A stretch of DNA of 59,836 nt, from the IMG/VR virus record IMGVR_UViG_3300014838_000022, positions 1 through 59,836 of that record; one strand, given 5' to 3'. The notes below the pieces were generated by a model. That model saw nothing but the letters and a program-made list of their open reading frames with translations. It made no database searches and had not been told where the DNA came from. The position numbers were made by a program, and so were the translations under genes. Position 1 is the first letter of the stretch, and the number at the start of each line of letters is the position of its first letter. Source of the DNA: a virus. Below are positions 4,446-59,836 of the stretch, piece by piece.

Positions 4446-4853
4446 TTAAGGTTCATCGAAAAACTTTAACGCTATGGCATACTTCTGACGAGCATGGTCC
4501 GAAGGCTGATCGTTTAAATTATCGTTAATATCCTTACGTTTAACCTCTAAAGCGTCAGGACTTGTCTTAATTGCTGTCCAATAATCCATATTGGACACCC
4601 CCTTGAGATGAGTCAAAAGACGCACAGCATCAATGATATAGCTCGGAAATCCCAATTTTATTAAATCCTCAATTGTAATGTGCGTATCTTCCGGAATATC
4701 ATGAAGAAATGCAATAGGCTTGAGACGGTCATCAACATTAAAAGCTATTCGGGTGGCGTGGCGGATTGCCCGAGAATCAAGTGGAAATGCACGATGAAGA
4801 ACTTCATCCGCAAGTTTAATCCATACACCTACTGTTTGTTCACTTGGTTTCAT
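4446..4853 (-). CDS. HD-domain hydrolase, SpoT/MESH1-like
   Basis: A 135-aa protein. Visible motifs are HATRIAF (metal His), AFLHDIPEDT (the HD pair with downstream EDT) and VKRKDINDNL, the KxxDxxDN element. This is the layout of the RelA/SpoT hydrolase domain. Family knowledge suggests hydrolysis of (p)ppGpp-like nucleotides, which a phage could use to blunt the stringent response, but substrate is inferred only. Overlaps the end of the fucose synthase gene by 14 nt. Confidence 0.7.
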   Translation of the reverse strand: MKPSEQTVGVWIKLADEVLHRAFPLDSRAIRHATRIAFNVDDRLKPIAFLHDIPEDTHITIEDLIKLGFPSYIIDAVRLLTHLKGVSNMDYWTAIKTSPDALEVKRKDINDNLNDQPSDHARQKYAIALKFFDEP

Positions 4854-6870
4854 CTTTGTGTAGTTTATACCAGTTTATAGTTTTTGTCAATCCTTCTTTC
4901 AAAGGAATTTGTGGACGCCAGTCCATATCAAATAAGCGAGACGTGTCTAGAATTCGCTTCGGAGTACCATCGGGCTTGGTTGTATCCCAAATTATTTCTC
5001 CCTTATACCCGATGATTTCAGCGATATTTCCCACAATATCTTTGATTGTGTAGTCCGTCCCATATCCAATGTTAATAATGCGTTCATCACTATATTTCTC
5101 CATTAAAAATATACAAGCATCCGCCATATCATCAACATAAAGAAACTCCCGCCGAGCATTCCCAGTCCCCCACACCGTGACAGTCGGAGCATCCTTTTCG
5201 GTTGCTTCGACAAAACGACGAATCAGTGCAGGGATTACGTGTGAGTAGGTAGGATGAAAATTATCATTCTCGCCGTAGAGATTGCACGGCATAACCGAAA
5301 TAAAATCACATCCATATTGTTTACGATACGCTTGACACATCTTTATACCCGCTATTTTTGCAATGGCATAGGCTTGATTGGTTGGTTCAAGCTCTCCCGT
5401 CAACAGTGACTCTTCTTTAACAGGGACTTCGGCATATTTTGGATATATGCAATTATGAACGGCAATTCCATTTGCAGTATAAGAATGATCGTTTTCTACG
5501 GATAAGTCATATACCATTTCCTCCGTATCAATATGATGAATATTTTTGACTTTTATTTCCAAAAAATCACCATTGAAAGTATGATTTATTCGAGGTTTAT
5601 ATGATGGATGAAATTCGTCTATGTTTTCATTCAATATTTCTATTATAAATTTTATTGCATCTAAACCTACTATTTTCACTTCCCATTGAGACCGTTGATT
5701 TACAATTCTATTTTCAATAACACATGTTGGAGATTTCTTTTTATAATAAATTGTAGAAAAAATTCGCAATTTCAGCAATAGCTGTTGAAGTTGATATATT
5801 AGCTCTTTTGATGTAGAGGATGCTGTGCAGAAATATTGATTGTTTTTTCGATCAGTTCTCATTTTCCAATGCCCATCCCCACGCCAATATCCTTTCAGAA
5901 ATTTGGAAATAATTTCATTGGAAGAATTCATCATAAATTGAGGAATAAATTTTGTATGTGCTTTATGAATTAAATCGTCATTATAAAATGATCTGAAAAA
6001 ATTACACATGTCCTCCCCATTTACACAGATTTGCCAAGACGTTCGTTTTTTATACGAATGTGGATTTATTCCGAACACAGTTGAAATTTTAGAACATATA
6101 TCATCTTTAAATACTTCGTCGTGTCCCGGATAAAAAAATATATTGTGATATGATCCCCGTTTTCCGGATGCGTTTTGTCTAAGACATCCTTCCGCTACAA
6201 AATATCCACTTAATTCTGCTAAATCAGTTGTTATTTTGCGTTGGGACATATTATCTACCATTTTCAATTCGTCCGCTAATGGAATTAAAATTAAATCTTC
6301 TTTAGTTATATCCTTTGCTGCCACAAATCCACGTTTTGTATAAATCAAATGTTCTGGAGTACATGATAATTTATTCCATCCTTTAAAACCAATGACAATA
6401 AGTTTTTTATTAAAAACATTTGTTGTTGTTTTATAAACCTTCTGAAATTTATGCTGATGAGTTAGGACATAATCTCCAATTTTTACATCCACAATGTCCG
6501 TTATTCCTCGTCGTGTTATTATCATGGTTCCCATTGGAAAACAAACGCTACCTAAAAAACACAATTTTTTCACATCATATTTTCTACACGCCTCGATAAT
6601 ATTTGTTTGAATGGCCAAATTATTATAAATGAATTCCGCTGGCATAACATTGTTGGCATGTATTCCTCCAACTTTAGCTGCTGCATCGAAGATATATTCC
6701 GGTTGAACGTTACCCATCATGACCTCGACATCATCCTGACAAGTTAAATCAGCGTCTTTTCGTGTGATCGGAGTTACATTGTCATATCCCATCACCTTTA
6801 AACGACGAATAAGAGAACTTCCTACCAGTCCATTAGCTCCAAATACTACGATTTTACTTTTAGGATTCAT
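4840..6870 (-). CDS. fcl: GDP-L-fucose synthase interrupted by an intein
   Basis: A 676-aa precursor. The exteins together are 312 aa, the usual length of GDP-L-fucose synthase (GDP-4-keto-6-deoxymannose epimerase-reductase, NADPH-dependent). The N-extein has the Rossmann motif FGANGLVGSSL, and the active-site segment would read GSV-CIYPK after splicing. The C-extein has YAIAK, the SDR Tyr-x3-Lys catalytic pair. The intein occupies residues 110-473 and sits exactly in the active-site loop, so the enzyme is inactive until it splices. The product would feed surface-sugar or glycan modification. No GDP-mannose dehydratase is in the window. Confidence 0.92.
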   Translation of the reverse strand: MNPKSKIVVFGANGLVGSSLIRRLKVMGYDNVTPITRKDADLTCQDDVEVMMGNVQPEYIFDAAAKVGGIHANNVMPAEFIYNNLAIQTNIIEACRKYDVKKLCFLGSVCFPMGTMIITRRGITDIVDVKIGDYVLTHQHKFQKVYKTTTNVFNKKLIVIGFKGWNKLSCTPEHLIYTKRGFVAAKDITKEDLILIPLADELKMVDNMSQRKITTDLAELSGYFVAEGCLRQNASGKRGSYHNIFFYPGHDEVFKDDICSKISTVFGINPHSYKKRTSWQICVNGEDMCNFFRSFYNDDLIHKAHTKFIPQFMMNSSNEIISKFLKGYWRGDGHWKMRTDRKNNQYFCTASSTSKELIYQLQQLLLKLRIFSTIYYKKKSPTCVIENRIVNQRSQWEVKIVGLDAIKFIIEILNENIDEFHPSYKPRINHTFNGDFLEIKVKNIHHIDTEEMVYDLSVENDHSYTANGIAVHNCIYPKYAEVPVKEESLLTGELEPTNQAYAIAKIAGIKMCQAYRKQYGCDFISVMPCNLYGENDNFHPTYSHVIPALIRRFVEATEKDAPTVTVWGTGNARREFLYVDDMADACIFLMEKYSDERIINIGYGTDYTIKDIVGNIAEIIGYKGEIIWDTTKPDGTPKRILDTSRLFDMDWRPQIPLKEGLTKTINWYKLHKDETK
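5452..6543 (-). other. Intein with LAGLIDADG (DOD) homing endonuclease
   Basis: 364 residues beginning Cys (CFPMGTMI) and ending AVHN, followed by Cys of the C-extein: the Cys1, penultimate His, terminal Asn and +1 Cys needed for protein splicing are all present. The block-B-type CTPEHLIY is visible. Two DOD-like motifs, LSGYFVAEG and FLKGYWRGDG, mark an apparently intact homing endonuclease. Host insertion is before the catalytic-loop Cys of the synthase. Confidence 0.93.
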
Positions 6871-21758: not shown

Positions 21759-21805
21759 CATTACCCATTCGCAACCATCGTGGAGGTAGTGATTACACTG
21801 CGAAC

Positions 21806-22207
21806 TGGACATGCGGAGAATCGAACTCCGGTCTCTAATATATTCAATGAATAACACTACACGCTTAGTTTGTATATGAATTATGCTGATTATTAACAAA
21901 CAATTTACTCAGTATAGACATACTTAACAAGTATGTCAGTTGCCTCTATGATAGAACCATAGAAAGTTCCCTCGCTTATTAACGCAACAGAATTTTTAGC
22001 GAGTATTATATTCTGCTTACCGAATTAAGCCAATGCTAACTCTTCGGAAACCACTTCTTCATTTCCCAAAGGAAACTCGAAGTTGATAGCGGACAATTCG
22101 TTTAAACGATTATCGGTTATATTTCAGTCGTTTTTTTACAGAGCCGATGACCAAACTCTGGCGTGCATTCCTCATTTCCAATCTTAGATCGAAACCAGGT
22201 CATGCCC
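21806..22207 (-). ncRNA. ssrA: tmRNA
   Basis: The 5' end GGGCATGACCTGGTTTCGA matches the tmRNA start, and the 3' end has the T arm GGAG-TTCGATT-CTCC and CATGTCC pairing with GGGCATG. The tag frame ends GAG TTA GCA TTG GCT TAA (22039-22025), so the peptide ends EELALA. Read from a GCT resume codon at 22090 the tag is 21 residues (AINFEFPLGN then EEVVSEELALA). CCA is not encoded. It would rescue stalled ribosomes and mark products for proteolysis. Internal pseudoknots are expected but not drawn here. Confidence 0.92.
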
Positions 22208-34468: not shown

Positions 34469-34729
34469 TCAAGTAAACAGACGATTAACAACCAATTGCT
34501 TCAAGTCCCGGGCAATGCCATTCGTATCATGCAGATTGATCATTGGAGCGTTTTTCACACCAACGGCTTGAGCATCAGCCAAGACATTGCCACTCAGGAC
34601 AACAGTATGAATGATATATACACCGCCACGGTAACGAACACGGCGACCGTTGGCAGCAATGAGGGCTTGGCGACGGGCTTCAATTCCCGCTTTGAGGTTC
34701 GAGGGAGGGAGTGTGGATTCAATTTTCAT
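34469..34729 (-). CDS. Hypothetical 86-aa protein
   Basis: Not recognised. MKIESTLPPSNLKAGIEARR then a beta-rich middle. A perfect TATAAT ends six nt before the ATG, so the mRNA is predicted leaderless. Confidence 0.65.
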   Translation of the reverse strand: MKIESTLPPSNLKAGIEARRQALIAANGRRVRYRGGVYIIHTVVLSGNVLADAQAVGVKNAPMINLHDTNGIARDLKQLVVNRLFT

Positions 34730-41071: not shown

Positions 41072-41352
41072 TAACAATAGGTTGGTGTATCAATTATATA
41101 CACACATCCTGTAGTGTATATACCTTCTGTAGTGGTATGTCATCAATGGACTATACCTTATATGGTGTTATACTATTACGAGGGTATGATATATTTACAC
41201 TACACTACAGGATGTGTGTCTAAATACTGGATATTATATGTTTGGGTCCGAAGTATCAACGTCGCAGACCCGGAGCCTGGTACAGGGAAATACTGGATAT
41301 TACATACTCGCCCGGGCGCATTAAATTGGTTCGGTGAAACGATGTGATTATA

Positions 41353-41416
41353 ATAAAAAAGAGCGGTTGAAAATAATAATTGGGGACTGAATCCCAAGAA
41401 CTAAAATCAACCGCTC
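41353..41416 (-). terminator. Terminator of RNA A
   Basis: GAGCGGTTGA / TCAACCGCTC closing a 36-nt loop that itself folds (TTGGGATTCAGTCCCCAA), followed by TTTTTT on the minus strand. Confidence 0.8.
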
Positions 41417-41635
41417 ATCAGACTTTAGACTCTAACTACTAATACACTCATTGCCTTTATCTCACGTTTACTTCTGTCACTGCGTTCCTTTCGGAATTGA
41501 ATGGCGTGGCTCTCCATTCATGATATACCTTCAATGAGTTTTTAATCCCCACTTAACCCTTGCAAACTTCCATTGCGGGAACCAAATTCTAATTGTGAGT
41601 CTGTTTCAATCCGCACCCCGGTCTCACGGGGTGAC
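41365..41635 (-). ncRNA. RNA A: ncRNA beginning with a CRISPR-repeat-like unit
   Basis: The predicted start is 41635, seven nt from the TATAGT box, and the transcript ends at a strong terminator, about 270 nt. The first 33 nt are the repeat-like unit. The rest is rich in self-complementarity: ACTCATTG/CAATGAGT, GAATGG/CCATTC, the GNRA hairpin TTCC-GAAA-GGAA, AGACT/AGTCT. No supported reading frame. Function inferred only. Confidence 0.65.
41603..41635 (-). other. Solitary CRISPR-repeat-like unit, copy A (33 nt)
   Basis: On the minus strand it begins GTCACCCCGTGAGACC and ends GGGGTGCGGATTGAAAC. It has the size of a type I/III repeat, CACCCC/GGGGTG arms and the ATTGAAAC end that forms the crRNA 5' handle in such systems. 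Only one copy here, at the very 5' end of a transcript. Confidence 0.7.
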
Positions 41636-41641
41636 ATAAAT

Positions 41642-41670
41642 ACTATAACATACTCTACCAAACTTATCAA
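41642..41670 (-). promoter_or_regulatory. Promoter of RNA A
   Basis: TTGATA (41665-41670), 17 nt, TATAGT (41642-41647). Confidence 0.7.
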
Positions 41671-41675
41671 ATTTT

Positions 41676-41725
41676 ATTTTGTGAGTCTCACCCTGAATAC
41701 ACATAACCCTTGAGACTCACAAAAT
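41676..41725. repeat. 14-bp inverted repeat
   Basis: ATTTTGTGAGTCTC (41676-41689) and GAGACTCACAAAAT (41712-41725) are perfect arms around 22 nt, directly upstream of the RNA A promoter. Possible terminator or operator. Confidence 0.65.
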
Positions 41726-41730
41726 CTATC

Positions 41731-41844
41731 TGTTGGACTAATTGTGCATGGCAACACAGTCAGAGGCTCTACTGCATGATCCTGCTAGTAACTTGCTGTA
41801 TTACGGGTCTGATCTATTACGTATTCAATCAGCATAGTCCAACA
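41731..41844 (-). ncRNA. Structured 114-nt RNA closed by a 10-bp stem
   Basis: TGTTGGACTA (41731-41740) pairs with TAGTCCAACA (41835-41844). It lies between the stop of the 41.9-kb gene and the RNA A promoter, with no reading frame. Could be a 3' element of that mRNA or a separate RNA. Confidence 0.45.
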
Positions 41845-41853
41845 AAAATAAAA

Positions 41854-42045
41854 TTACTGTCCAAACAATGCCGATGTCTGGTCACCACTATAACGCACCT
41901 TCCCTTGGCTGTCAAGTGTCTTTTTGGTATTTCCATCATACCGTCCAATCGTCGCACCCGAGGCATCTTGAGCAATCACTTGGGAACCAGTATGCAACTT
42001 GTATCCCTTCGTGCGACCACTACCGTCTTTGATTGTTTCTCTCAT
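41854..42045 (-). CDS. Hypothetical 63-aa phage protein
   Basis: MRETIKDGSGRTKGYKLHTG and IGRYDGNTKKTLDSQGKVRY form a pattern I recall from small conserved phage proteins of unknown role. Promoter TTGACA (42074-42079), 16 nt, TATGTT (42052-42057), six nt to ATG 42045. Confidence 0.7.
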   Translation of the reverse strand: MRETIKDGSGRTKGYKLHTGSQVIAQDASGATIGRYDGNTKKTLDSQGKVRYSGDQTSALFGQ

Positions 42046-42051
42046 GCTAAG

Positions 42052-42079
42052 AACATACCACAAATACTTGCGGTGTCAA
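42052..42079 (-). promoter_or_regulatory. Promoter of the 42.0-kb gene
   Basis: TTGACA-N16-TATGTT six nt from the start codon. Confidence 0.8.
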
Positions 42080-42087
42080 ATTTTATT

Positions 42088-42324
42088 TTATAACACCGTG
42101 AGCGTAATCTCAGTGCCCGATTCGAGCGGAAACAATACCCTCTCACATATGGGCGCTATATTCGTCCAAGCCTGAACCGCAATTCCTCTATCTGGTCCAG
42201 TGACCAGAAACAAATCAAAGATTGAATTTTTTGCCCAGTATGGATAATTACGTTGTTTAATCTCTTCTTTAGGCAACGTTATTTTCACCTTGGCATTTAC
42301 GCACATGTAGTTTTGGTCATTCAT
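42088..42324 (-). CDS. Hypothetical 78-aa protein
   Basis: Not recognised. Promoter TTGACA (42353-42358), 16 nt, TAGAAT (42331-42336), six nt to ATG. Confidence 0.65.
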   Translation of the reverse strand: MNDQNYMCVNAKVKITLPKEEIKQRNYPYWAKNSIFDLFLVTGPDRGIAVQAWTNIAPICERVLFPLESGTEITLTVL

Positions 42325-42330
42325 ACGGTT

Positions 42331-42358
42331 ATTCTAACACACTATTGGGACTTGTCAA
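42331..42358 (-). promoter_or_regulatory. Promoter of the 42.3-kb gene
   Basis: TTGACA-N16-TAGAAT six nt from the start codon. Confidence 0.8.
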
Positions 42359-42365
42359 ATAAAAT

Positions 42366-42943
42366 TGGTGCCATCGGCTGGACTTCCACCAGCAAACGGG
42401 AGTCACCCCATTATTTTTCCATCCTTGAGTTTAACTGGAATCTAGCGACACTAGATTTGCTTTATCTTTCGAACCATTAAACTGTTAGGACGAAGTAACG
42501 TTGTATCTAGCACGTTACGCTATGGCATAAAATTTGGTATTAAGAGGATTTCACGTAAGAACCATTTAAGGTTAATTCGTTCCAATAAAAAGGGGGTGAA
42601 CCTTTACCTCCCCTCGTTCAAGAGGGGCGTGCTACCAGTTACACCATATCGTCGTTTGTCTCTTGCGGAACCACCCAAAGAGAGCTACTCCCTGGAAACC
42701 GCTTTGTTTGGCCTTACAAATTAAAATTAGTGTGCCAGTCACGGCATCTTCGTGCAATGAAACTTGGTGACTAGCCTATTTCATTATTAACCGATTCGCC
42801 CTTTATCCTTGGCATCTTACAATCACACGCAATACTGTATGCGGCAAGTTCGGCGACAAGACTAATCAAAAATTAAAGGTAGCAATTCAGTCTAATCCCA
42901 TTACATTGTAAGTTTCAATCCGCACCCGGTCTCACGGGGTGAC
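42366..42943 (-). ncRNA. RNA B: ~575-nt structured region with tRNA-like parts
   Basis: Starts at the second CRISPR-repeat-like unit. No gene. Near its 3' end CGATGGC-A-CCA (42376-42366), preceded by a T-arm-like GCTGG-TGGAAGT-CCAGC, looks like a tRNA 3' end, with a partner GCCATAG at 42536, too far (171 nt) for a normal tRNA. A second tRNA-like core (GGTGTAACTGGTAGCACG D arm, CCCCT/AGGGG anticodon stem, AAAGG-TTCACCC-CCTTT T arm) lies around 42595-42650 but lacks an acceptor partner. Either decayed tRNAs or a novel RNA. Confidence 0.45.
42912..42943 (-). other. Solitary CRISPR-repeat-like unit, copy B (32 nt)
   Basis: Same as copy A except for one fewer G/C in the stem. Promoter places +1 at 42943, the first base of the unit. 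Upstream ~45 nt are also nearly identical between A and B. Confidence 0.7.
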
Positions 42944-42949
42944 ATAAAT

Positions 42950-42977
42950 ACTATAACACACTCCCCAAACTTGTCAA
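42950..42977 (-). promoter_or_regulatory. Promoter of RNA B
   Basis: TTGACA (42972-42977), 16 nt, TATAGT (42950-42955). Confidence 0.8.
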
Positions 42978-43222
42978 ATTTTATTTTGTGTCCATTTCCC
43001 CCGAGGGTTAGGATAATACAGTGTTCCTGTCGCAATATTCATGATCCCCCCTGCCCCCCCCGGGAGTTCCCTTGGGGGAAAGGAAAATACTTCGTGGCCG
43101 CTATAAAGTGTTTTCTTACAAGGGGGTGCACTCTCCCCCCACCCCCAGGTCTCTCTATTCCAGTGCATAGGAACCCCATCATCCCCATCGGGGCCAAGTA
43201 TGATAAATGTTTTATTTGACAT
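42974..43222 (-). CDS. Hypothetical 82-aa protein
   Basis: MSNKTFIILGPDGDDGVPMH and a Trp/Gly-rich middle suggest a small conserved phage protein, not named. Overlaps the end of the GP88 gene by 11 nt, and its stop overlaps the RNA B promoter. Confidence 0.6.
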   Translation of the reverse strand: MSNKTFIILGPDGDDGVPMHWNRETWGWGESAPPCKKTLYSGHEVFSFPPRELPGGAGGIMNIATGTLYYPNPRGKWTQNKI

Positions 43223-50733: not shown

Positions 50734-50910
50734 TCATGGTTTTCTCCGCCATTTCCATGCCACGATTGCACAATTACCAAGGATTATTATCCCCCAAGCG
50801 GTGATTATAGCTGAGAGCGTGGTTTTAATGGCTGTTAGACCCATAATAAGTAATAGAAATCCAACAACCAAAAATACAAGAAAGACAATAATGTCAATGA
50901 GTTGAATCAT
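50734..50910 (-). CDS. Small membrane protein, 58 aa
   Basis: MIQLIDIIVFLVFLVVGFLL is a membrane span; a second follows (AIITAWGIIILGNCAIVAW) with a basic tail. Start overlaps the end of the upstream gene by 17 nt. Confidence 0.6.
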   Translation of the reverse strand: MIQLIDIIVFLVFLVVGFLLLIMGLTAIKTTLSAIITAWGIIILGNCAIVAWKWRRKP

Positions 50911-51637
50911 AATATTTGTTTGGAGGCAAAACTCTTATCACCTTGAGCTTTTTCACTCGCAATTTATCAGCATTCCCTGGCAATCCCCCGAAACAAATAT
51001 CCTCTCGCTTCACTTCCACTTCCAAGCATATTAATTTGTTAGTTTCTTCTGGAGTACACAGCCCCATGAATTCTGGACGAATTCCAACTCGAAATACATG
51101 CAATCCAGGGGCACATTGTCGGTCAGAAACAACCGCATATGGTATCTCCAAAGTTGCCCCTATATCATATTTGATCGGGCTAGAGCGTCCCCATCCAGGT
51201 GACATGAAGTTGAATTTAACCCATTTCCATGCCATAAACACCTCGGGATGGATCGCTATAAAATACTGGTTAAGATAAGCGGTTGTGTCCTCTTTGCCAA
51301 TGTTGGCACGGTCTCCAATTCTGGCCTCGTCGCCAATGTTGGCCCCGTCGCCAATGTTGGCCCCGTCGCCAATGTTGGCCCCGTCGCCAATGTTGGCCCA
51401 TTTGCCAATTGTGGCCACGTCGCCAATTGTGGCACGGTCTCCAATTCTGGCCCCGTCGCCAATGTTGGCCCCGTTGCCAATTGTGGCCCCGTTGCCAATT
51501 CTGGCCCCGTCGCCAATGTTGGCCCCGTCGCCAATTTTGGCCCATTTGCCAATTATAATATGACGAGACGAGAAATCATTTTCGGTAGGATTTTCAAAAA
51601 GTTTCCAATTGCCATTTTCTTTGAGATATATTTTCAT
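50894..51637 (-). CDS. Hexapeptide-repeat (left-handed beta-helix) protein
   Basis: A 247-aa protein. Residues ~30-110 are tandem copies of A-x-I-G-(D/N/K)-(G/R/E), such as ANIGDGANIGDGARIGNGAT, the left-handed beta-helix hexapeptide. The remaining ~135 residues form a separate C-terminal domain (APGLHVFRVG, KREDICFGGLPGNADKL). The repeat DNA (51295-51560) is an 18-bp unit repeated about 15 times. Hexapeptide helices occur in acyltransferases and phage tail proteins; here the C-terminal domain suggests the latter or a novel use. Confidence 0.8.
   Translation of the reverse strand: MKIYLKENGNWKLFENPTENDFSSRHIIIGKWAKIGDGANIGDGARIGNGATIGNGANIGDGARIGDRATIGDVATIGKWANIGDGANIGDGANIGDGANIGDEARIGDRANIGKEDTTAYLNQYFIAIHPEVFMAWKWVKFNFMSPGWGRSSPIKYDIGATLEIPYAVVSDRQCAPGLHVFRVGIRPEFMGLCTPEETNKLICLEVEVKREDICFGGLPGNADKLRVKKLKVIRVLPPNKYYDSTH
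51295..51560. repeat. ~15 tandem 18-bp units encoding hexapeptides
   Basis: Units of the form CCAATGTTGGCCCCGTCG with point changes (ATTGTGG, ATTCTGG, CGTTG, CATTTG). Because the period is a multiple of three, long open frames appear in several frames and on both strands; only the minus-strand beta-helix frame is supported. Confidence 0.95.
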
Positions 51638-52633: not shown

Positions 52634-53379
52634 AAATCTAAATAGCCCTCGGGCAAATAAAGAGGTTTGCATGATAGAAATAGTTCTCGAAAGTATGCTT
52701 TAGTGCCGGGGATACCACCTTGGGAATCAATAAACTTATGTCCCCACTTGGCGATGGCTTTTTGATGTTCAAGTGACTGAGTATGATGCACATTATCCCG
52801 ATCTTCTTTGGTGGGAGCCGGTGGGATTTCATCATCAGATTTGTATCCAGCCTCAGCCATAAGCAATGCATATTTCCATGCGGGGAGTCGAGTAAGCATA
52901 TCGTTGCTTTTCAGGTGACGAAGAGCGGCACTTGCCTTCTCTTGAGTGACGTAAACACCTTGGGGATAATCGACTTTATACACTGATTGGGTTATGGCTT
53001 CAACCTTCTCGTGGCAGTCGATACATAATAGAACACACCATTGCCTTGCTCGGCTCTTATCTTCGACCGGAAATAATTTGCGAATAACGTGGGGGATTAC
53101 GTGATGAAGGGTCAATTCTTTGTTAGCGCCACAGATAACGCATTGGTTCTTGATGACAGCAATTTCAAATATCGTGGGATCACGTTCCACTTTAGCGTCG
53201 AAATTAAGCTTAATAGCACAAGGATAACCCTCGGGCGGTGTGACTTCAACTGCAAGATTACGCTCCAGATACCATCTCACTCGTTTGCCGTTAACCGTGG
53301 ACAGAGGATTGCCGCTTTTGGATAACACAAGGGCATTACTATAGTATTTGGGATCGTGTAAACAGCGATTACGTCTCAT
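52630..53379 (-). CDS. HNH endonuclease, 249 aa
   Basis: QCVICGANKELTLHHVIPH and CVLLCIDCHEKVEAI form the zinc-supported HNH core (CxxC, HH, CxxCH). The N-terminal ~80 residues are not recognised. A host-directed or homing nuclease. Confidence 0.8.
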   Translation of the reverse strand: MRRNRCLHDPKYYSNALVLSKSGNPLSTVNGKRVRWYLERNLAVEVTPPEGYPCAIKLNFDAKVERDPTIFEIAVIKNQCVICGANKELTLHHVIPHVIRKLFPVEDKSRARQWCVLLCIDCHEKVEAITQSVYKVDYPQGVYVTQEKASAALRHLKSNDMLTRLPAWKYALLMAEAGYKSDDEIPPAPTKEDRDNVHHTQSLEHQKAIAKWGHKFIDSQGGIPGTKAYFRELFLSCKPLYLPEGYLDL

Positions 53380-53570
53380 ACGTCAGTCCATTGTCTGACG
53401 GGATACCATTTCCAAAAACAACAGTCTCCCCGCTCTTGAAGTTCCCATAGATGTTTGTAGGAGAAATAAACAATGCGATACTCGTCCATCTTGACCACGA
53501 CCTTGAAGTCCTTGGGCTTAAAGACTGCCAGCCAAAGAACTTTAGCCACTAATTTCAAATCATTTAACAT
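53376..53570 (-). CDS. Hypothetical 64-aa protein
   Basis: Not recognised. MLNDLKLVAKVLWLAVFKPK; ATGA overlap downstream. Confidence 0.55.
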   Translation of the reverse strand: MLNDLKLVAKVLWLAVFKPKDFKVVVKMDEYRIVYFSYKHLWELQERGDCCFWKWYPVRQWTDV

Positions 53571-53802
53571 AGTTAATCAATTTCCCTTTTAAGAGCATGT
53601 TGTCGTAAATCTTCCCTTGTATTTTATTGCACCGCTCACATTCCACTCTCGCATTAAACGTGGGAAAACACCACTGATACACCGCATCCTTGTGAAAATG
53701 CGTGCCACATAGGGCTTTGTCGTTCTCAACAAGATGCGTAATCCCACCAGTTCTACCGGGGACTCCGAAGTAACCAATCGTAATGCAGCGGGTATCAATC
53801 AT
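53560..53802 (-). CDS. Hypothetical 80-aa protein with Cys pair
   Basis: MIDTRCITIGYFGVPGRTGG and ARVECERCNKIQG (CxxC). Start fixed by TTGACG (53833-53838), 17 nt, TATATT (53810-53815), seven nt to ATG 53802. Confidence 0.6.
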   Translation of the reverse strand: MIDTRCITIGYFGVPGRTGGITHLVENDKALCGTHFHKDAVYQWCFPTFNARVECERCNKIQGKIYDNMLLKGKLINYVK

Positions 53803-53834
53803 ACCGTACAATATACCACAGTTCCCACTATACG

Positions 53835-54005
53835 TCAAGCCTTTGATCGTAAAAATGTGCTTTGGCTAATAAACATCGGCGTATTGTCCTTAATACATTT
53901 GAGTTCCGCTTCGAGGGCGGCAATCTTGGTGTCCTTCTGCTTAAGGTCTTTCTCCATCGCCTCAATCATCAGAGTGAGGCGAGCATTGTCGTTAGAATTT
54001 ATCAT
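53835..54005 (-). CDS. 56-aa coiled-coil protein
   Basis: MINSNDNARLTLMIEAMEKD then heptad-like KQKDTKIAALEAELK. Not recognised. Its stop overlaps the next promoter. Confidence 0.55.
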   Translation of the reverse strand: MINSNDNARLTLMIEAMEKDLKQKDTKIAALEAELKCIKDNTPMFISQSTFLRSKA

Positions 54006-54019
54006 AATTAAATTAACTT

Positions 54020-54082
54020 TTAGGATAGGGCATCCTCTAATATTTTCAATAGTTTTCGAATATTGACTGCATCTTTTTTCAT
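54020..54082 (-). CDS. Possible 20-aa peptide
   Basis: MKKDAVNIRKLLKILEDALS, opened by ATGA overlap with the previous gene. Small and unproven. Confidence 0.3.
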   Translation of the reverse strand: MKKDAVNIRKLLKILEDALS

Positions 54083-54381
54083 ATCACTGTTTTCTTTCCT
54101 GTTTTCGAATCATATTTGATCCCCAATGACCCTAGAATTGCCACAGCCTCCTCGTATTTAATTCCTGCATCGTGTATTTGTTCTTTGGTCTTACACTCGG
54201 CTATAGAATCAAAGAAGAAGTCGGCGTGGTTAACTATGATTTGAATTATTTCCTCGGAAGATAGCAGGGACATTACCCGTTCTCCGGGAGGATTCGGGGT
54301 TCGTTCGTGTCTCACGTATTCATTCCCTTCTTCCCAAGGGTTTAATGGTGGTTCGGAATATGCATCACTTAGAGTTGCCAT
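54079..54381 (-). CDS. Hypothetical 100-aa protein
   Basis: Not recognised. Acidic, helical C-terminal half (EEIIQIIVNHADFFFDSIAE). Confidence 0.6.
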   Translation of the reverse strand: MATLSDAYSEPPLNPWEEGNEYVRHERTPNPPGERVMSLLSSEEIIQIIVNHADFFFDSIAECKTKEQIHDAGIKYEEAVAILGSLGIKYDSKTGKKTVI

Positions 54382-54444
54382 ATGATTATTTATTCATGTG
54401 TTGAATTTCAGAATATGATAATGCTTTGTTGTAAATATTTTTAG

Positions 54445-56775
54445 CTATCTTAAATTCATCATTATTTTTCCAATTCCAGATTCGTCATCATAGTCCTCAT
54501 TCCACACATAATATTCTTTCTCATCAGTTGTGGTTATTATTTTTAAGTCTATTAACGCTTCAATTCGTTCAATCTTGGTGAACCACAGTTGAATGGAATT
54601 TCTTACAATTGCATTATAGGGAACTTTCTCTCCTGCTATAATCTTCTTTACCAAATCTTTATCAATAATTACAGTAGCAGTAGCATTGTCAATAACCTTA
54701 AAATTATTATTAATCTCTTCAAATTGTCGATCATCTTCCATCATTAAAAGTTTACTCCCCCTACCCTTAGATATGATACTTAACTCCATTCTAACTAATT
54801 CGGTGCAATACGATGGAGTGAGGTTATCGAATAGTGTACTATTAAAGACTTGAATGCCTGAGAGTAACTGTGGATTAGCAGTGAACATATGATTTATTCC
54901 AACTAAGCTTGGAGACCAATGATAAATATATACTGTAGCGTCCGTCGAAATGCTACCACGATTAATTCTTCCCATGAATTGAAATAGATTAAGTGGGCCA
55001 CATTTCTCTCGCCATCCCACATCAAATGATATATCAACCCCACACTCAATGGTTGAAGTAGCTAATACCAAGACCTTCTTGGATTTATCTTTAAGTGATG
55101 TTTTTATATTCTCAAGTATCTTCTCTTTATGTGTAGGAGTCTGATACCCCGTTAGTTCGTATATTATCCATTTATCCAATCCATCATACCTACGTAAGAT
55201 ACTTGCTAATACTGAAGCATTGTTAATAGTATTACAAACAACCAATCCACTATGCTTAATGGACATTTTGTCGAGAATATGATTGATGAAGGAATCTAGG
55301 TTCATAGCATCTTTAATTATGTCAATCTTTACTCGTTTGTGTTCGAGGTCTTGGAACATTTTATAGGTAGACTTAGCAATGATGTCATGAACTTCTATCT
55401 CGGATTCGTCGAATATATTCCAATAATATGCCGATGTTCCTGAGCTAAAAATGAAAGAGCAATTAAAATTTATAGATAAGTCTTTGAGTAAAGGAAGGAT
55501 ATACTGCCAGTATTCATGTGGCATACTCTTGTCAAATTCATCGAAAAAGAACACCGAGTTGGCGAACCAATGAAGTTTTCTACAGCGACCGGGGCGATTG
55601 TTGGCTAATGATTCGAAGAATTGAACTGCGGTTGATACATTAATGGGAGCATTCCATTTGTTGGAATGTTTTCGCATCCACAACTTTTCAAACTCACATT
55701 TACTGTGAATTTCATTGACGTTGTTTTCATTTTCTCCGTCCATCAATATTGACTTGCGATACTCATCAACGGTTTGACTTATAATGTTGGTGAAGGGAAT
55801 GATATTATAAATTCTGTCAGCATTTCTCTGTGCTGCCAATCGTAACATATAGGTTAATCCACTGAATGTCTTTCCTAATCCTACCGAGCCATCTAATGGG
55901 AAGAATGCGACATCATTGGGTATAGGTTCATTGAGACATGTTGATCGCAACTGTTGGCGGCTTTTCAATCGTTCGGGCGACACATCTGATGGCTTAAGAC
56001 GGTCAATGTGAAGGTTAAGTTTCTTTAATCGTTCGAGGGGAACCAGTTTAGTAAATTCAAAGGGATCGTATTTTTGATTATAAAATCTATCAGTATCAGT
56101 ATGATCTGCGTCCACTAAGCAAGAAAAAGCAATTCTTATTTGCAATGCCGATAACGGTATTTTACGACTAATATTAGTTCTCGGGACATATACAATACTA
56201 ACAACCGAGTCATGAATATTCTCATACTCATCAATATGAGCATTGATGTAGTCCATCACCGATTTCTCCGGACACTTAATCTTATATGTCTCTAAGATGT
56301 CTCGGTTATCCCTAAACAATCTATTATTGATTTTGTAATAGTAATTTGTTCTAATAGGATTGGATTTGTCTATGCATTCTTGAGCCATTGGATTTTGATT
56401 CTTAAGACCAAGATGGTGGGCATGAACCAGGAAGGCAGCTACAAGATAAGAAAGATTTTCGGTTTGTTCATACTTTTTAATTAGAATAGCAACACCAGCG
56501 TCCACATGATTGAGCATCTTGGCATCTTGATTGTCATCATTATCACCATTCAAGATGACTTGAGCCGATGCATCTAACTTCCCAATGTCATGATAAAGCG
56601 CAGCTAAGGCCACTACATCCATCAAGAAAGCGACCTTAGAAGGACTGAGGTTGGTCTTCCGCAATGCATCCGTAATAAAAGTGCGTCCGTCGTTATATAC
56701 ATTAGTAATGTGTTCACAATAGGTCTGCGTGATCATTACACCACGTTTTTTGTCAGATGAGTGTGCCGCTATCAT
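54445..56775 (-). CDS. cas3: Cas3-like HD-nuclease/helicase
   Basis: A 776-aa protein. It opens with AAHS, as Cas3 HD domains often do; ALYHDIGK (H62-D63), H90, and HAHH (118-121) complete the HD metal site. VDADHTDTDRF (221-231) is the LADxxDS-type element before the helicase. Helicase motifs: I GSVGLGKT (296-303), II FFFDEFDKS (DEFD, 412-415), III SSGTSA, VI QFMGRINRG (599-607) preceded by TSTIECGVDISFDV. It is shorter than typical ~900-aa Cas3, with a reduced C-terminus. In type I CRISPR, Cas3 unwinds and degrades DNA recruited by Cascade, yet no Cascade gene is in the window. Divergent from the Cas12-like gene; own leaderless promoter. Confidence 0.9.
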   Translation of the reverse strand: MIAAHSSDKKRGVMITQTYCEHITNVYNDGRTFITDALRKTNLSPSKVAFLMDVVALAALYHDIGKLDASAQVILNGDNDDNQDAKMLNHVDAGVAILIKKYEQTENLSYLVAAFLVHAHHLGLKNQNPMAQECIDKSNPIRTNYYYKINNRLFRDNRDILETYKIKCPEKSVMDYINAHIDEYENIHDSVVSIVYVPRTNISRKIPLSALQIRIAFSCLVDADHTDTDRFYNQKYDPFEFTKLVPLERLKKLNLHIDRLKPSDVSPERLKSRQQLRSTCLNEPIPNDVAFFPLDGSVGLGKTFSGLTYMLRLAAQRNADRIYNIIPFTNIISQTVDEYRKSILMDGENENNVNEIHSKCEFEKLWMRKHSNKWNAPINVSTAVQFFESLANNRPGRCRKLHWFANSVFFFDEFDKSMPHEYWQYILPLLKDLSINFNCSFIFSSGTSAYYWNIFDESEIEVHDIIAKSTYKMFQDLEHKRVKIDIIKDAMNLDSFINHILDKMSIKHSGLVVCNTINNASVLASILRRYDGLDKWIIYELTGYQTPTHKEKILENIKTSLKDKSKKVLVLATSTIECGVDISFDVGWREKCGPLNLFQFMGRINRGSISTDATVYIYHWSPSLVGINHMFTANPQLLSGIQVFNSTLFDNLTPSYCTELVRMELSIISKGRGSKLLMMEDDRQFEEINNNFKVIDNATATVIIDKDLVKKIIAGEKVPYNAIVRNSIQLWFTKIERIEALIDLKIITTTDEKEYYVWNEDYDDESGIGKIMMNLR

Positions 56776-56781
56776 GTCCCT

Positions 56782-56810
56782 ATATTACCACGCTATAATG
56801 GCCAATGCAA
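56782..56810 (-). promoter_or_regulatory. Promoter of the cas3-like gene
   Basis: TTGCAT (56805-56810), 17 nt, TAATAT (56782-56787), six nt to ATG 56775. Confidence 0.65.
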
Positions 56811-56842
56811 GCTTTTATTCTTAGAAAATTCACAGAAAGGAT

Positions 56843-56871
56843 TTGACACGGTTCTTTGATTCAGCTACACT
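56843..56871 (+). promoter_or_regulatory. Promoter of the cas12-like gene
   Basis: TTGACA (56843-56848), 17 nt, TACACT (56866-56871), ~39-nt leader without an obvious ribosome-binding site. Back-to-back with the cas3 promoter, 33 bp between the two -35 boxes. Confidence 0.65.
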
Positions 56872-56910
56872 CGGGTCAGAATTAACCAAAATATAACGAA
56901 ATTAGTTACT

Positions 56911-59721
56911 ATGACTAAACCATCCACAGCAGATATTCCACCACAAGACGTAAAATCAACCAAAACCACGACTCTCAAAGTCATAGGTAATGATGTTAAA
57001 CTTAGATTGTTCAGCTTATTTGATCCATTTACACTTATTTGTTCTGACATCAAGGATAAAATATATCAATTGAAGGATGACGAGTCAACAGTAAAAATCT
57101 ACAACGATTATGTGGATGAGGGTAAGCGAGGAAGGGCTGCTGCAACCACAGTATTCACCAAAATCAAAGAGAAAAAAACCCCATACGTGAAGAATTCGTT
57201 CACAGGAAAATATAAATCAAATCCTATATTTCCTATCTATAAATGTCCTAAGAAAGGATTAAACTTTGCCACGGCTGGATGGCATTACACCAGTAATGCC
57301 GCTATTCACACTCAACTAGATTCATTGAATAAATGTGATAAAATTTGTAATGACGAGTTCAATAAGTTAAAGAAAGAGGTTGAAGACTACGATGAAACTC
57401 TTCATGAAGACTACGATGAACAATTGGTGGCAGATTTCTATGAATTCATTCAAGACACTATGTTATCGGGATGGAGTTTTGATGGGAACTTTCAAAAGTT
57501 CTTTGTCCAAGTAATGTTGCCGGGTCTTAAGAATGGAACTATCATCACCAAAGGCACCTATCGGCTTGGTGATAAAAAGAAAAGGTATTCTTTCTATACC
57601 CCCAAGTTGGCCGAATCCATTGCATCCAATTCTAAGTTTTGGGACTTGATGGCAAATGACACTACAGTTAGTTACTTCAACGCTAATCATTTACTCCAAC
57701 AGAAAAAAGAACATGCTGCCTATTCTAAGACAACCTTGGTTAAGGCTCAAGTTCGTCCCGTGTTCGCAAACAATGGCGTTAAGTTTTCTATTTCGTGTGA
57801 TGGCAGAATGGCCTATATGGCATTCAAGCTTCCTGCTGTCGATGGGAATCCTTCAGAATTGCTAAATGTTCCATGTGCCTATCAAAAATTTTACTTTGGT
57901 GGCGATAAGGCTGGGACTCCCCGTAACAGTTATTTGTCGGGATTAACCATTGAAGATAACAAAGATGGCACATATATTTGCCATTACTCGGTTAACAACA
58001 AACGTCCCCAAACCGCCCAGTTAAACGAGTGCTTTTTAAGAATGGTGGTTAAGAATAAAAATTGGGTCCAAAAATATTTGGATGGCACATTGACCAAAAA
58101 GGATGGTCCTATCAACGCCAGCTATTTCGAGTTCTATTTCGATTTATGCATGGGAGTAGTCGAAGCCCCTATTCATGATCTTACCAACAATGAAGTCTTC
58201 AAGAAAGGAGGCATTCGGGGAGGCATTCGGGCGTTTCATAGTTCTGCTTATCCCGAACGCAAAGACTTCGATAATCAATCAAGCATTCCAGTTCAGTTCC
58301 GTTGTGTTGTAGATAAGCCGTATAGACTCATGGGAGTTGATTTGGGTCAACGAAATCCGTTTGCATATTGCATCAAGAATAATGATGGCAGTGTCGTAGC
58401 CTCGGGACATATGGTTGGGGCTTCCAACGATAACTATAAAAAATATATCGAGTTCGGGAATGAGTGTGAGTATATAATTCAACTCATTAAAGAAACCAAG
58501 AACTATCTGTATGGAGACGACGATGCTATTGATGCAGATAACTATGCACGAGTGAAATCTACGTTACCCTTTAAATCCTATTTGTTGTATCTTACATCTA
58601 AACGTGGATTGGTTAATGTAGAGGATCAATCCAAAGGGCAGACGCATCTGCTACGAGCAGATGATGGATGGATGATAAAGGATTTGGTATATAAACAAAC
58701 AAAACAATATCATATTCTAAATGACGGACGTTATACTGACAATGATTGGAGGCAGACTCTTTATTGGGCGGATGCTATATCTCGGTTCATAGACCTTCAG
58801 AAAACATATAATAATTTCGGGTCTTATTACGATCATGCGAAGAAGACTAAAGTCAATGGAACGGGAAAAGGATTTTGCTCTACTTACTATGACCACATCA
58901 ATAATTTGAATAAGGATACATTTAAGAAATTTTGTTTTGAACTCTTGCCTATTATCAAGAAATACGGGGTATCATTGGTATGTGTTGAGAAATTGACTTC
59001 TATGTATGGTGACAAACTGAGGTCTGCGGATGATAATCGCATGTATAATATGTGGCCGGTTGGTCAACTCAAAACTTTCCTCAAAGGTGTGTTGGCACCA
59101 TATAAAGTAGGCGTAATTCAAGTTTCAGAGCAAGATACGTCTCAAATCGTCGATGGTAAATGGGCATATCGCCCCAAAGATGGAAATGCCGCTAATAATC
59201 TTTATTATTTAGATGTGGCTAACAAGATTCAATCGGTTCATTCTGATGAACAGGCAGCATTTAATATTGTGGACCGGGCTTTAACCAACCATACTAATTT
59301 ATATAGTTTATACATGGTAAATGTATTAGATAGCTATTGGGTGCCGAATCAAACATGGAATCCCAAAGAAATCGGTGGCAAGCTAAGTCGTGGGTTTCTT
59401 ACTAAATTGTATGGTACATCCAATGTGGTATTCATAAAACAATATAATAAGCTTATCAGGACAACCATTGGAATTAAAGAACTCAAAAAAATGGTTGGTA
59501 AGAGCAAGCCACTAGGCAAGGGCTATATGTATAGAGTGAATGAGACCGAATGGATTGACGGAGAATCTAAACAAAAATTGGTTGACTCTATTTGCGAGAG
59601 GCTAGGTGATACATCATCCATGCTCACCTCCTCGCAAGTCACAACTTCCACAAAATCAGTAGTTTGTGTAGAGATTGGACCCCCCAATAAGAATTCAACC
59701 GTGAAATCTTGTGAGGGTTGA
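56911..59721 (+). CDS. cas12: Cas12-like (type V) RuvC effector nuclease
   Basis: A 936-aa protein. RuvC-I: RLMGVDLGQRNPFAYC (catalytic D477). RuvC-II: VSLVCVEKLTSMYGD (E693). RuvC-III: VHSDEQAAFNIVDRAL (D779), where the usual D-x-N-A-A reads D-E-Q-A-A. Order and spacing are those of Cas12 split RuvC domains in the C-terminal half; the first ~470 residues are unassigned (REC/WED/PID expected). No CxxC zinc ribbon is seen between RuvC-II and III, unlike TnpB/Cas12f but as in several larger Cas12 types. Subtype unclear. No CRISPR array, cas1 or cas2 in the window; the gene ends at the inverted terminal repeat. Confidence 0.82.
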   Translation: MTKPSTADIPPQDVKSTKTTTLKVIGNDVKLRLFSLFDPFTLICSDIKDKIYQLKDDESTVKIYNDYVDEGKRGRAAATTVFTKIKEKKTPYVKNSFTGKYKSNPIFPIYKCPKKGLNFATAGWHYTSNAAIHTQLDSLNKCDKICNDEFNKLKKEVEDYDETLHEDYDEQLVADFYEFIQDTMLSGWSFDGNFQKFFVQVMLPGLKNGTIITKGTYRLGDKKKRYSFYTPKLAESIASNSKFWDLMANDTTVSYFNANHLLQQKKEHAAYSKTTLVKAQVRPVFANNGVKFSISCDGRMAYMAFKLPAVDGNPSELLNVPCAYQKFYFGGDKAGTPRNSYLSGLTIEDNKDGTYICHYSVNNKRPQTAQLNECFLRMVVKNKNWVQKYLDGTLTKKDGPINASYFEFYFDLCMGVVEAPIHDLTNNEVFKKGGIRGGIRAFHSSAYPERKDFDNQSSIPVQFRCVVDKPYRLMGVDLGQRNPFAYCIKNNDGSVVASGHMVGASNDNYKKYIEFGNECEYIIQLIKETKNYLYGDDDAIDADNYARVKSTLPFKSYLLYLTSKRGLVNVEDQSKGQTHLLRADDGWMIKDLVYKQTKQYHILNDGRYTDNDWRQTLYWADAISRFIDLQKTYNNFGSYYDHAKKTKVNGTGKGFCSTYYDHINNLNKDTFKKFCFELLPIIKKYGVSLVCVEKLTSMYGDKLRSADDNRMYNMWPVGQLKTFLKGVLAPYKVGVIQVSEQDTSQIVDGKWAYRPKDGNAANNLYYLDVANKIQSVHSDEQAAFNIVDRALTNHTNLYSLYMVNVLDSYWVPNQTWNPKEIGGKLSRGFLTKLYGTSNVVFIKQYNKLIRTTIGIKELKKMVGKSKPLGKGYMYRVNETEWIDGESKQKLVDSICERLGDTSSMLTSSQVTTSTKSVVCVEIGPPNKNSTVKSCEG

Positions 59722-59836
59722 CAACAGTTATCATTTAGTCTAAAATATCTAAAGAAAGTTAAAGATTTTTTGACTTTTTGTTAAAATGAAGTGTATTTAT
59801 ATATGAAGACAAAACCAAATACTGTGAGTTCCACAG
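59714..59836. repeat. Right copy of 123-bp terminal inverted repeat
   Basis: Reverse complement of 21-143 with one mismatch; begins at the stop codon of the Cas12-like gene and ends exactly at the window end with the hairpin CTGTG-AGTTC-CACAG. Confidence 0.9.
59718..59746 (+). promoter_or_regulatory. Outward promoter in right inverted repeat
   Basis: TTGACA (59718-59723), 17 nt, TAAAAT (59741-59746). It sits directly after cas12 and reads out of the window, where a CRISPR leader and array could lie (inference). Confidence 0.65.

Follow-up and report, generated by a model that had tools for sequence, protein, structure and literature searches.

Organization of the locus

The window (the whole stretch of 59,836 nt analyzed here, positions 1 to 59,836 of IMG/VR virus record IMGVR_UViG_3300014838_000022) contains two solitary type I-C-like CRISPR repeats, both on the minus strand and both at the positions given in the original prediction: U1 (41603..41635), with which the transcript of an RNA gene is predicted to begin, and U2 (42912..42943). 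Read 5' to 3', U1 (41635->41603) is the 33-nt sequence GTCACCCCGTGAGACCGGGGTGCGGATTGAAAC and U2 (42943->42912) is the 32-nt sequence GTCACCCCGTGAGACCGGGTGCGGATTGAAAC, in which one G of the 3' arm is deleted relative to U1. The units are near-identical, and each combines a hairpin of the CACCCC/GGGGTG type with a CGGATTGAAAC handle; the 5' GTC and the handle GGATTGAAAC are the same in both, and exact GGATTGAAAC sites occur in the window solely within U1 and U2. As in Racrs and SRUs, these are CRISPR-type repeats of a virus record that lie outside open reading frames. A coding function was ruled out, since the difference between 33 and 32 nt breaks the frame and the overlapping ORFs are short chance ones.

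Each unit closes an 81-nt module, consisting of an AT-rich element, a promoter and the repeat, which is duplicated with 94% identity. This identity ends at the 3'-terminal base of the repeat, beyond which the two copies have nothing in common. The rest of the predicted U1 transcript (41355..41602, minus strand) consists of unique sequence with a long predicted hairpin and a possible 30-aa ORF (41517-41425, minus strand), and probably ends about 280 nt from its start at a terminator hairpin (stem 41416-41361) followed by TTTTTT. In the region downstream of U2 (42360..42911, minus strand), no ORF longer than 41 aa on that strand and no clear terminator were seen. A tRNA-like element with D, anticodon and T arms, lacking the acceptor stem, follows U2 at 42588-42647 (minus strand); it scores slightly above the cut-off of the Rfam tRNA model, and ARAGORN makes no call. 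Two small genes lie between the units on the same strand. The first, a 78-aa ORF (42088..42324) with the leaderless promoter TTGACA-16-TAGAAT-6 nt-ATG, has no family match and a structure model too poor for use (pLDDT 46); by position only, it is a possible anti-defence gene. The second, a small ORF beginning MRETIKDG (41854..42045), is in the leaderless register as well (TATGTT-6 nt-ATG at 42045). No known acr gene was found among the neighbours of U1 and U2.

No full or partial second repeat is present within the flanking 100-150 bp, the distance used to call Racrs and SRUs solitary, and a search for a degenerate copy gave flank alignments no better than shuffled ones (p 0.11-0.96). The sequence GTGGGGATTAAAAAC downstream of U1, which is at the right distance for a degenerate second repeat, was rejected as being at chance level (p 0.11). 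U1 and U2 are therefore not mini-arrays, the definition of which calls for a spacer flanked by two or more repeats. Other repeats in the vicinity comprise a perfect 15-bp inverted repeat (41676-41725) immediately upstream of the U1 promoter, a near-perfect inverted repeat whose 22-bp halves enclose 82 nt (41097-41222), with a weak RNA-OUT likeness below the cut-off, and a 47-bp exact direct repeat (40966/41025) adjoining the latter.

Predicted folding and chance occurrence of the units

The predicted fold of U1 (-13.5 kcal/mol, z -2.5) is a stem of 7 bp closed by a 6-nt loop, followed by an 11-nt single-stranded handle. The fold of U2 is weaker (-8.0 kcal/mol, z -0.4) because one G of its stem is missing. 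The Rfam family CRISPR-DR9 (RF01322) matches exactly the stretches of U1 and U2, with 21.5 and 21.0 bits, respectively, values that fall short of the gathering cut-off of 45 for membership. In 8 Mb of random Markov sequence with the dinucleotide composition of the window, the handle GGATTGAAA occurred 72 times, none of them with an in-place stem of at least 5 bp, whereas both handles of the window carry such a stem.

These data bear on the idea that the units are simply 5' hairpins stabilizing or regulating unrelated RNAs downstream, or relics of an array that has decayed, their CRISPR likeness being historical. The way in which the transcripts run into other sequence (the possible 30-aa ORF and terminator after U1, the tRNA-like stretch after U2) and the imperfect hairpin of U2 would suit it. 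However, the handle GGATTGAAAC and the 5' GTC, needless for a mere hairpin, are identical in both units while the downstream sequence is not conserved at all, and the combination is absent from random sequence; we regard this idea as very improbable.

Promoters and predicted transcription start

The promoter of U1 (41636..41683, minus strand) consists of a AAAATAAAAT element, TTGATA, a 17-nt spacer that includes a TG before the -10, and TATAGT, from which 6 nt lead to U1; that of U2 (42944..42990, minus strand) consists of the same AAAATAAAAT element, TTGACA, a 16-nt spacer and TATAGT, again 6 nt from the unit. The two promoters are near-identical, of sigma-70 type and strong by consensus, with the -10 ending 6 nt before each repeat. 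The strong promoter that had been proposed directly upstream of each unit is thus recognizable in both cases (TTGATA-17-TATAGT and TTGACA-16-TATAGT), and both units have, in the form of predicted promoters, one of the features by which Racrs and SRUs are recognized.

The register of transcription can be read from other genes of this phage. In a catalogue of its 65 strong promoters, the ATG of an ORF of at least 40 codons follows the -10 at a distance of exactly 6 nt in 14 cases, where about 0.4 would be expected, which indicates that the phage makes many leaderless mRNAs and that the +1 register is readable. The typical leaderless layout is TTGACA-16-TATAAT-6 nt-ATG, with examples at 34729, 35574, 37462, 40144, 42324, 44078, 45961, 50679, and 52174. 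U1 and U2 both begin at this register, and transcription of both units is accordingly predicted to start at the first base of the repeat. The original prediction had placed +1 at the same base; the argument from the register is independent of that guess and lends it support. Of the natural arrays that were read, a single one carried a -10-like hexamer at a matching distance from its first repeat.

Relationship to type I-C repeats and search for a cognate host

The representative genomes of GTDB, one per species, were scanned with the pattern CACCCC-N6-9-GGGGTG-N-GGATTGAAAC, which yielded 25 loci, mostly arrays. The natural array repeats share with U1 the GTCACCCC 5' end, the GGGGTG arms and the nGGATTGAAAC handle. 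The arms and the handle were prescribed by the search pattern, and likeness in these parts was thus to be expected; the presence of real arrays was not prescribed. One of these arrays, in Desulfocapsa (L014), adjoins a cas5c-cas8c-cas7c-cas4c-cas1c operon. Real arrays with the same layout, one of them beside an I-C operon, identify U1 and U2 as repeats of type I-C, with the GTC start, palindromic arms, ~11-nt nGGATTGAAA(C/T) handle and length of 31-33 nt of this subtype. The original prediction of a type I/III repeat consequently stands as regards the CRISPR-type repeat and is narrowed to type I-C, and its suggestion of an I-C-like end is borne out by the 5' end, arms and handle shared with natural I-C-type arrays.

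The edit distance to U1 is 5-7 of 33 in six aligned natural repeats, compared with 1-6 among those six. The main difference resides in the apical loop, GTGAGAC, which was not seen among the natural repeats retrieved, while the handle base C, where T is usual, also occurs in a Methylobacterium array (L002). Among the same-arm GTDB repeats, the closest one has an identity of about 85% (edit distance 5 of 33), as against the 90% or more to a known CRISPR repeat that SRUFinder demands of an SRU. There was no exact match to the strict pattern in GTDB, and no repeat within 3 mismatches of the units in ~1,480 genomes of five phyla. The expected similarity to genomic CRISPR repeats is therefore present at the level of I-C array repeats (~85%), and a host repeat closer than that was found neither in the GTDB pattern scan nor in the ~1,480 genomes.

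A BLAST search of U1 against plasmids and phages returned partial, chance-level matches only. Spacers of the retrieved arrays, compared with the window, gave repeat matches and a few short chance-level ones, with no convincing match. Relatives of the phage are mixed: its GP88 gene is nearest to Synechococcus phages and other genes to Vibrio or Rhodococcus phages, and these affinities led to no conclusion on the host. No relatives of the U1/U2 locus were found in viral collections, and no relatives of the Cas3c, Cas12-like or GP88-like proteins were confirmed in viral contigs.

Cas3c, a Cas12-like protein and the contig ends

A gene for a 776-aa Cas3 of type I-C (Cas3c) is located at 54445..56775 (minus strand), preceded by TAATAT-6 nt-ATG. 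It lies 11.5 kb from the units on the same contig, and no cas gene was recognized close to them; Racrs and SRUs are expected to lack an association with cas genes. The best matches of the phage protein are Cas3c models (PADLOC Cas3c, 3.2e-98, 328 bits, versus 229 bits for Cas3b), it contains the HD nuclease and helicase domains expected of a type I-C Cas3 (Pfam HD and Cas3-like_C_2), and Cas3 chains in PDB match it at 1e-28. The HD, Walker A, DExx and motif VI residues are apparently present when the translation is read by eye, and the protein appears full-length and intact. On the opposite strand, at 56911..59721, lies a gene for a 936-aa Cas12-like protein, a distant relative of Cas12X/CasJ19 (best PDB relatives, E 2.8e-9) with an NCBIfam guided_TnpB match of 1e-4, below the cut-off. 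The three RuvC acidic residues are apparently present in its translation, again by eye, and its structure model is too poor for use; it possibly represents a new type V lineage.

No CRISPR array or direct repeats were found at 53000-59836, no array was recognized in the window, and neither a Cascade nor any other I-C gene was recognized among the scanned proteins around Cas3c. The earlier remark that the window has no matching Cascade agrees with this result, although Cas3c and the Cas12-like protein on the contig had been missed. It holds for the window only, the contig being a fragment: the proteins scanned included a T4-type prohead protease and neither a capsid protein nor a terminase, which indicates that the contig is probably part of a larger phage and that genes may be missing. 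The source is probably a large phage. Its contig also encodes five tRNAs (853-1781), a nucleotide-sugar epimerase (4840-6870, minus strand) whose reading frame contains an intein bearing a LAGLIDADG endonuclease domain, a tmRNA (21803-22207, minus strand) with the unusually long tag DNRLNELSAINFEFPLGNEEVVSEELALA, and a 247-aa ORF (50894-51637) in which 14 copies of an 18-bp tandem repeat (51296-51554) encode an IGDGA[NR]IG-type repeat. The contig ends (21-156 and 59701-59836) are inverted 136-bp copies with 96% identity, carrying a promoter and the start of an ORF beginning MKTKPNTVSS, and are probably where the assembly broke. Their interpretation as leaders of CRISPR arrays was ruled out, the 136-bp repeat being the promoter and start of a paralogous ORF.

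The presence of Cas3c on the contig leaves room for a role of the units as guide RNAs with a host or off-contig Cascade. Each unit with its spacer-like downstream sequence would then be processed into a crRNA by host Cas5c/Cascade, or by a phage Cascade encoded off the contig, and the phage Cas3c would cut, or help to silence, a competing phage, a plasmid or a host gene. In addition to the full-length Cas3c, the near-identical repeats with unrelated downstream sequences are in keeping with this role, and phages using host Cas proteins with their own arrays have been reported (PMC7162821; PMC11656645). The first 10 nt after U1 (AGACTCACAA) moreover recur as a half of the inverted pair (41676-41725) upstream of the U1 promoter, a suggestive match that could mean self-targeting and self-repression by U1. 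On the other hand, no second repeat sets the 3' end of a crRNA, the best match in the phage's own genome covers 22 of 34 nt, and a long predicted hairpin lies inside the sequence after U1; no protospacer was detected for either unit in viral contigs (every sixth base free), nor for the U1 sequence in phage records. We consider the guide RNA role unlikely. A more specific version, a split, Cascade-less phage system in which U1 and U2 guides together with the phage's own Cas3c commandeer host Cas5c/7c/8c, be it for attacking rivals or genes of the host or for target repression, and do not merely jam the host complex, appears slightly more doubtful.

It is similarly improbable that the phage has its own I-C system, with Cascade and array off the fragment, and that U1 and U2 are outlying solitary repeats of it, either regulatory or left over. 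Cas3c and the Cas12-like protein at the contig end and the fragmentary state of the contig fit such a system, and the combination of an I-C variant with a type V effector has precedents among huge phages (PMC7162821). Nevertheless, no other I-C gene was found among the scanned proteins around Cas3c and no array at 53000-59836, and the units have dedicated promoters, in contrast to the first repeats of the natural arrays retrieved, of which all but one lack a -10-like hexamer at this place.

The units might alternatively serve as guide scaffolds of the Cas12-like protein instead of an I-C complex. Repeats of some type V systems end in AAAC or AAAG, and the Cas12-like gene, which has no recognizable array, is 14 kb away; against this, the whole unit has the I-C layout (5' hairpin, 11-nt single-stranded handle), with one such repeat standing beside an I-C operon, and there is hardly any likelihood that this explanation holds. 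The phage I-C system, the leader hairpin or remnant and the Cas12 guide are all judged less likely than guide RNAs of a type I-C complex.

Proposed function as RNA anti-CRISPR decoys

The best explanation, and one that we consider reasonably probable, is that U1 and U2 act as a pair of Racr-type RNA anti-CRISPR decoys against a host I-C system. It is favoured because the units are solitary, have strong promoters, were duplicated as promoter plus repeat only, are related to I-C repeats and fit the published SRUs. From the promoter register, we infer that the strong phage promoters would start an RNA at the first base of the repeat, the hairpin of which would be recognized by host Cas5c, the established repeat endonuclease of subtype I-C. 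A Cas5c cut at the stem base would leave the 11-nt CGGAUUGAAAC handle joined to phage sequence, and Cas5c, Cas7c and Cas8c would be sequestered, either by the uncut repeat or by a crRNA-like product that has no useful target. Fewer complexes would then be left for real crRNAs, and I-C interference would be weaker. Expression of the units, binding of Cas proteins, their titration and a benefit to the phage are thus the presumed steps.

Several observations speak against decoys. The phage's own Cas3c is not obviously needed by a purely anti-I-C phage; no repeat above ~85% was found in the genomes searched, the loop GTGAGAC is unmatched among the natural repeats retrieved, the U2 stem is weakened, and neither a known acr neighbour of the units nor, in viral collections, a relative of their locus was found. 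What the original prediction claimed in naming the units Racrs holds for the features of this class, i.e., solitary I-C-like repeats with their own strong promoters and a predicted +1 at the first base, and falls short at the matching host repeat (best ~85%). With the best repeat identity at ~85% versus the 90% rule, U1 and U2 are filed as Racr candidates, not as proven members.

If the decoy explanation is right, the two units are a Racr candidate pair whose start is predictable to the base from the leaderless promoters of the phage, which makes the pair clean to test. The occurrence of repeat decoys and Cas3c in one phage would also bear on the question, raised in the literature, of why phages recruit pieces of CRISPR RNA widely and Cas proteins hardly ever (PMC11656645), and makes it testable whether a single phage jams a CRISPR subtype and at the same time borrows it.

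Comparison with known systems

SRUs are solitary repeats in mobile elements, often directly downstream of a predicted promoter; among them, RacrIC1 inhibits type I-C and sits downstream of acrIC5 in a bicistronic RNA, and a non-targeting crRNA also lowers interference (Camara-Wilpert et al. 2023, PMC10651486). U1 and U2 resemble RacrIC1 and the other Racrs in that each is a single viral repeat, with no second one, directly after a predicted strong promoter, and they share the I-C type with RacrIC1. Unlike the bicistronic RacrIC1, they are predicted to be transcribed from their very first base, in the leaderless register. They further differ from Racrs in being present as two copies in one phage through a duplicated promoter-repeat module, in the additional Cas3c and Cas12-like protein of that phage, and in that no host repeat at 90% was found.

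With the repeats of the I-C arrays of Desulfocapsa (L014), Desulfovibrio (L015), Prevotellaceae (L025) and Methylobacterium (L002), the units share the 5' GTCACCCC or TTCACCCC, the CACCCC/GGGGTG arms, GGATTGAAAC and a length of 31-33 nt; the natural I-C loci read, in contrast, hold arrays of 2-76 repeats with spacers, and their apical loop differs. CreA is a crRNA-like regulator, a Cas-dependent repressor RNA. U1 and U2 are like CreA-type RNAs as solitary repeat-like RNAs that could load Cascade, but for these units neither a target that pairs significantly in the seed and over an extended stretch nor a toxin partner was found.

Viral mini-arrays and the CRISPR-Cas systems of huge phages also bring CRISPR repeats and cas genes together in a phage (PMC11656645, PMC7162821), and the joint presence of an I-C-like component and a type V effector in a single phage has been reported (PMC7162821). 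U1 and U2 differ from these in standing alone, with no array or Cascade recognized in the window, and their phage has Cas3c, while in the published I-C variant a different helicase takes that position (PMC7162821).

Finally, viral contigs were scanned for I-C repeats preceded at 5-8 nt by a -10 hexamer, and three contigs were obtained, one with a long array (L028), one with a solitary unit (L027) and one with a solitary I-C repeat (L029). In the last of these, three diverged I-C repeats occur in a tail-gene region (L029:5100-6280): two lie 1 kb upstream, and the last, solitary one is preceded by a -10-like hexamer and immediately followed by a terminator-like hairpin, and may be considered another Racr candidate. 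The scan shows that the promoter-repeat layout recurs in unrelated phages, though rarely.
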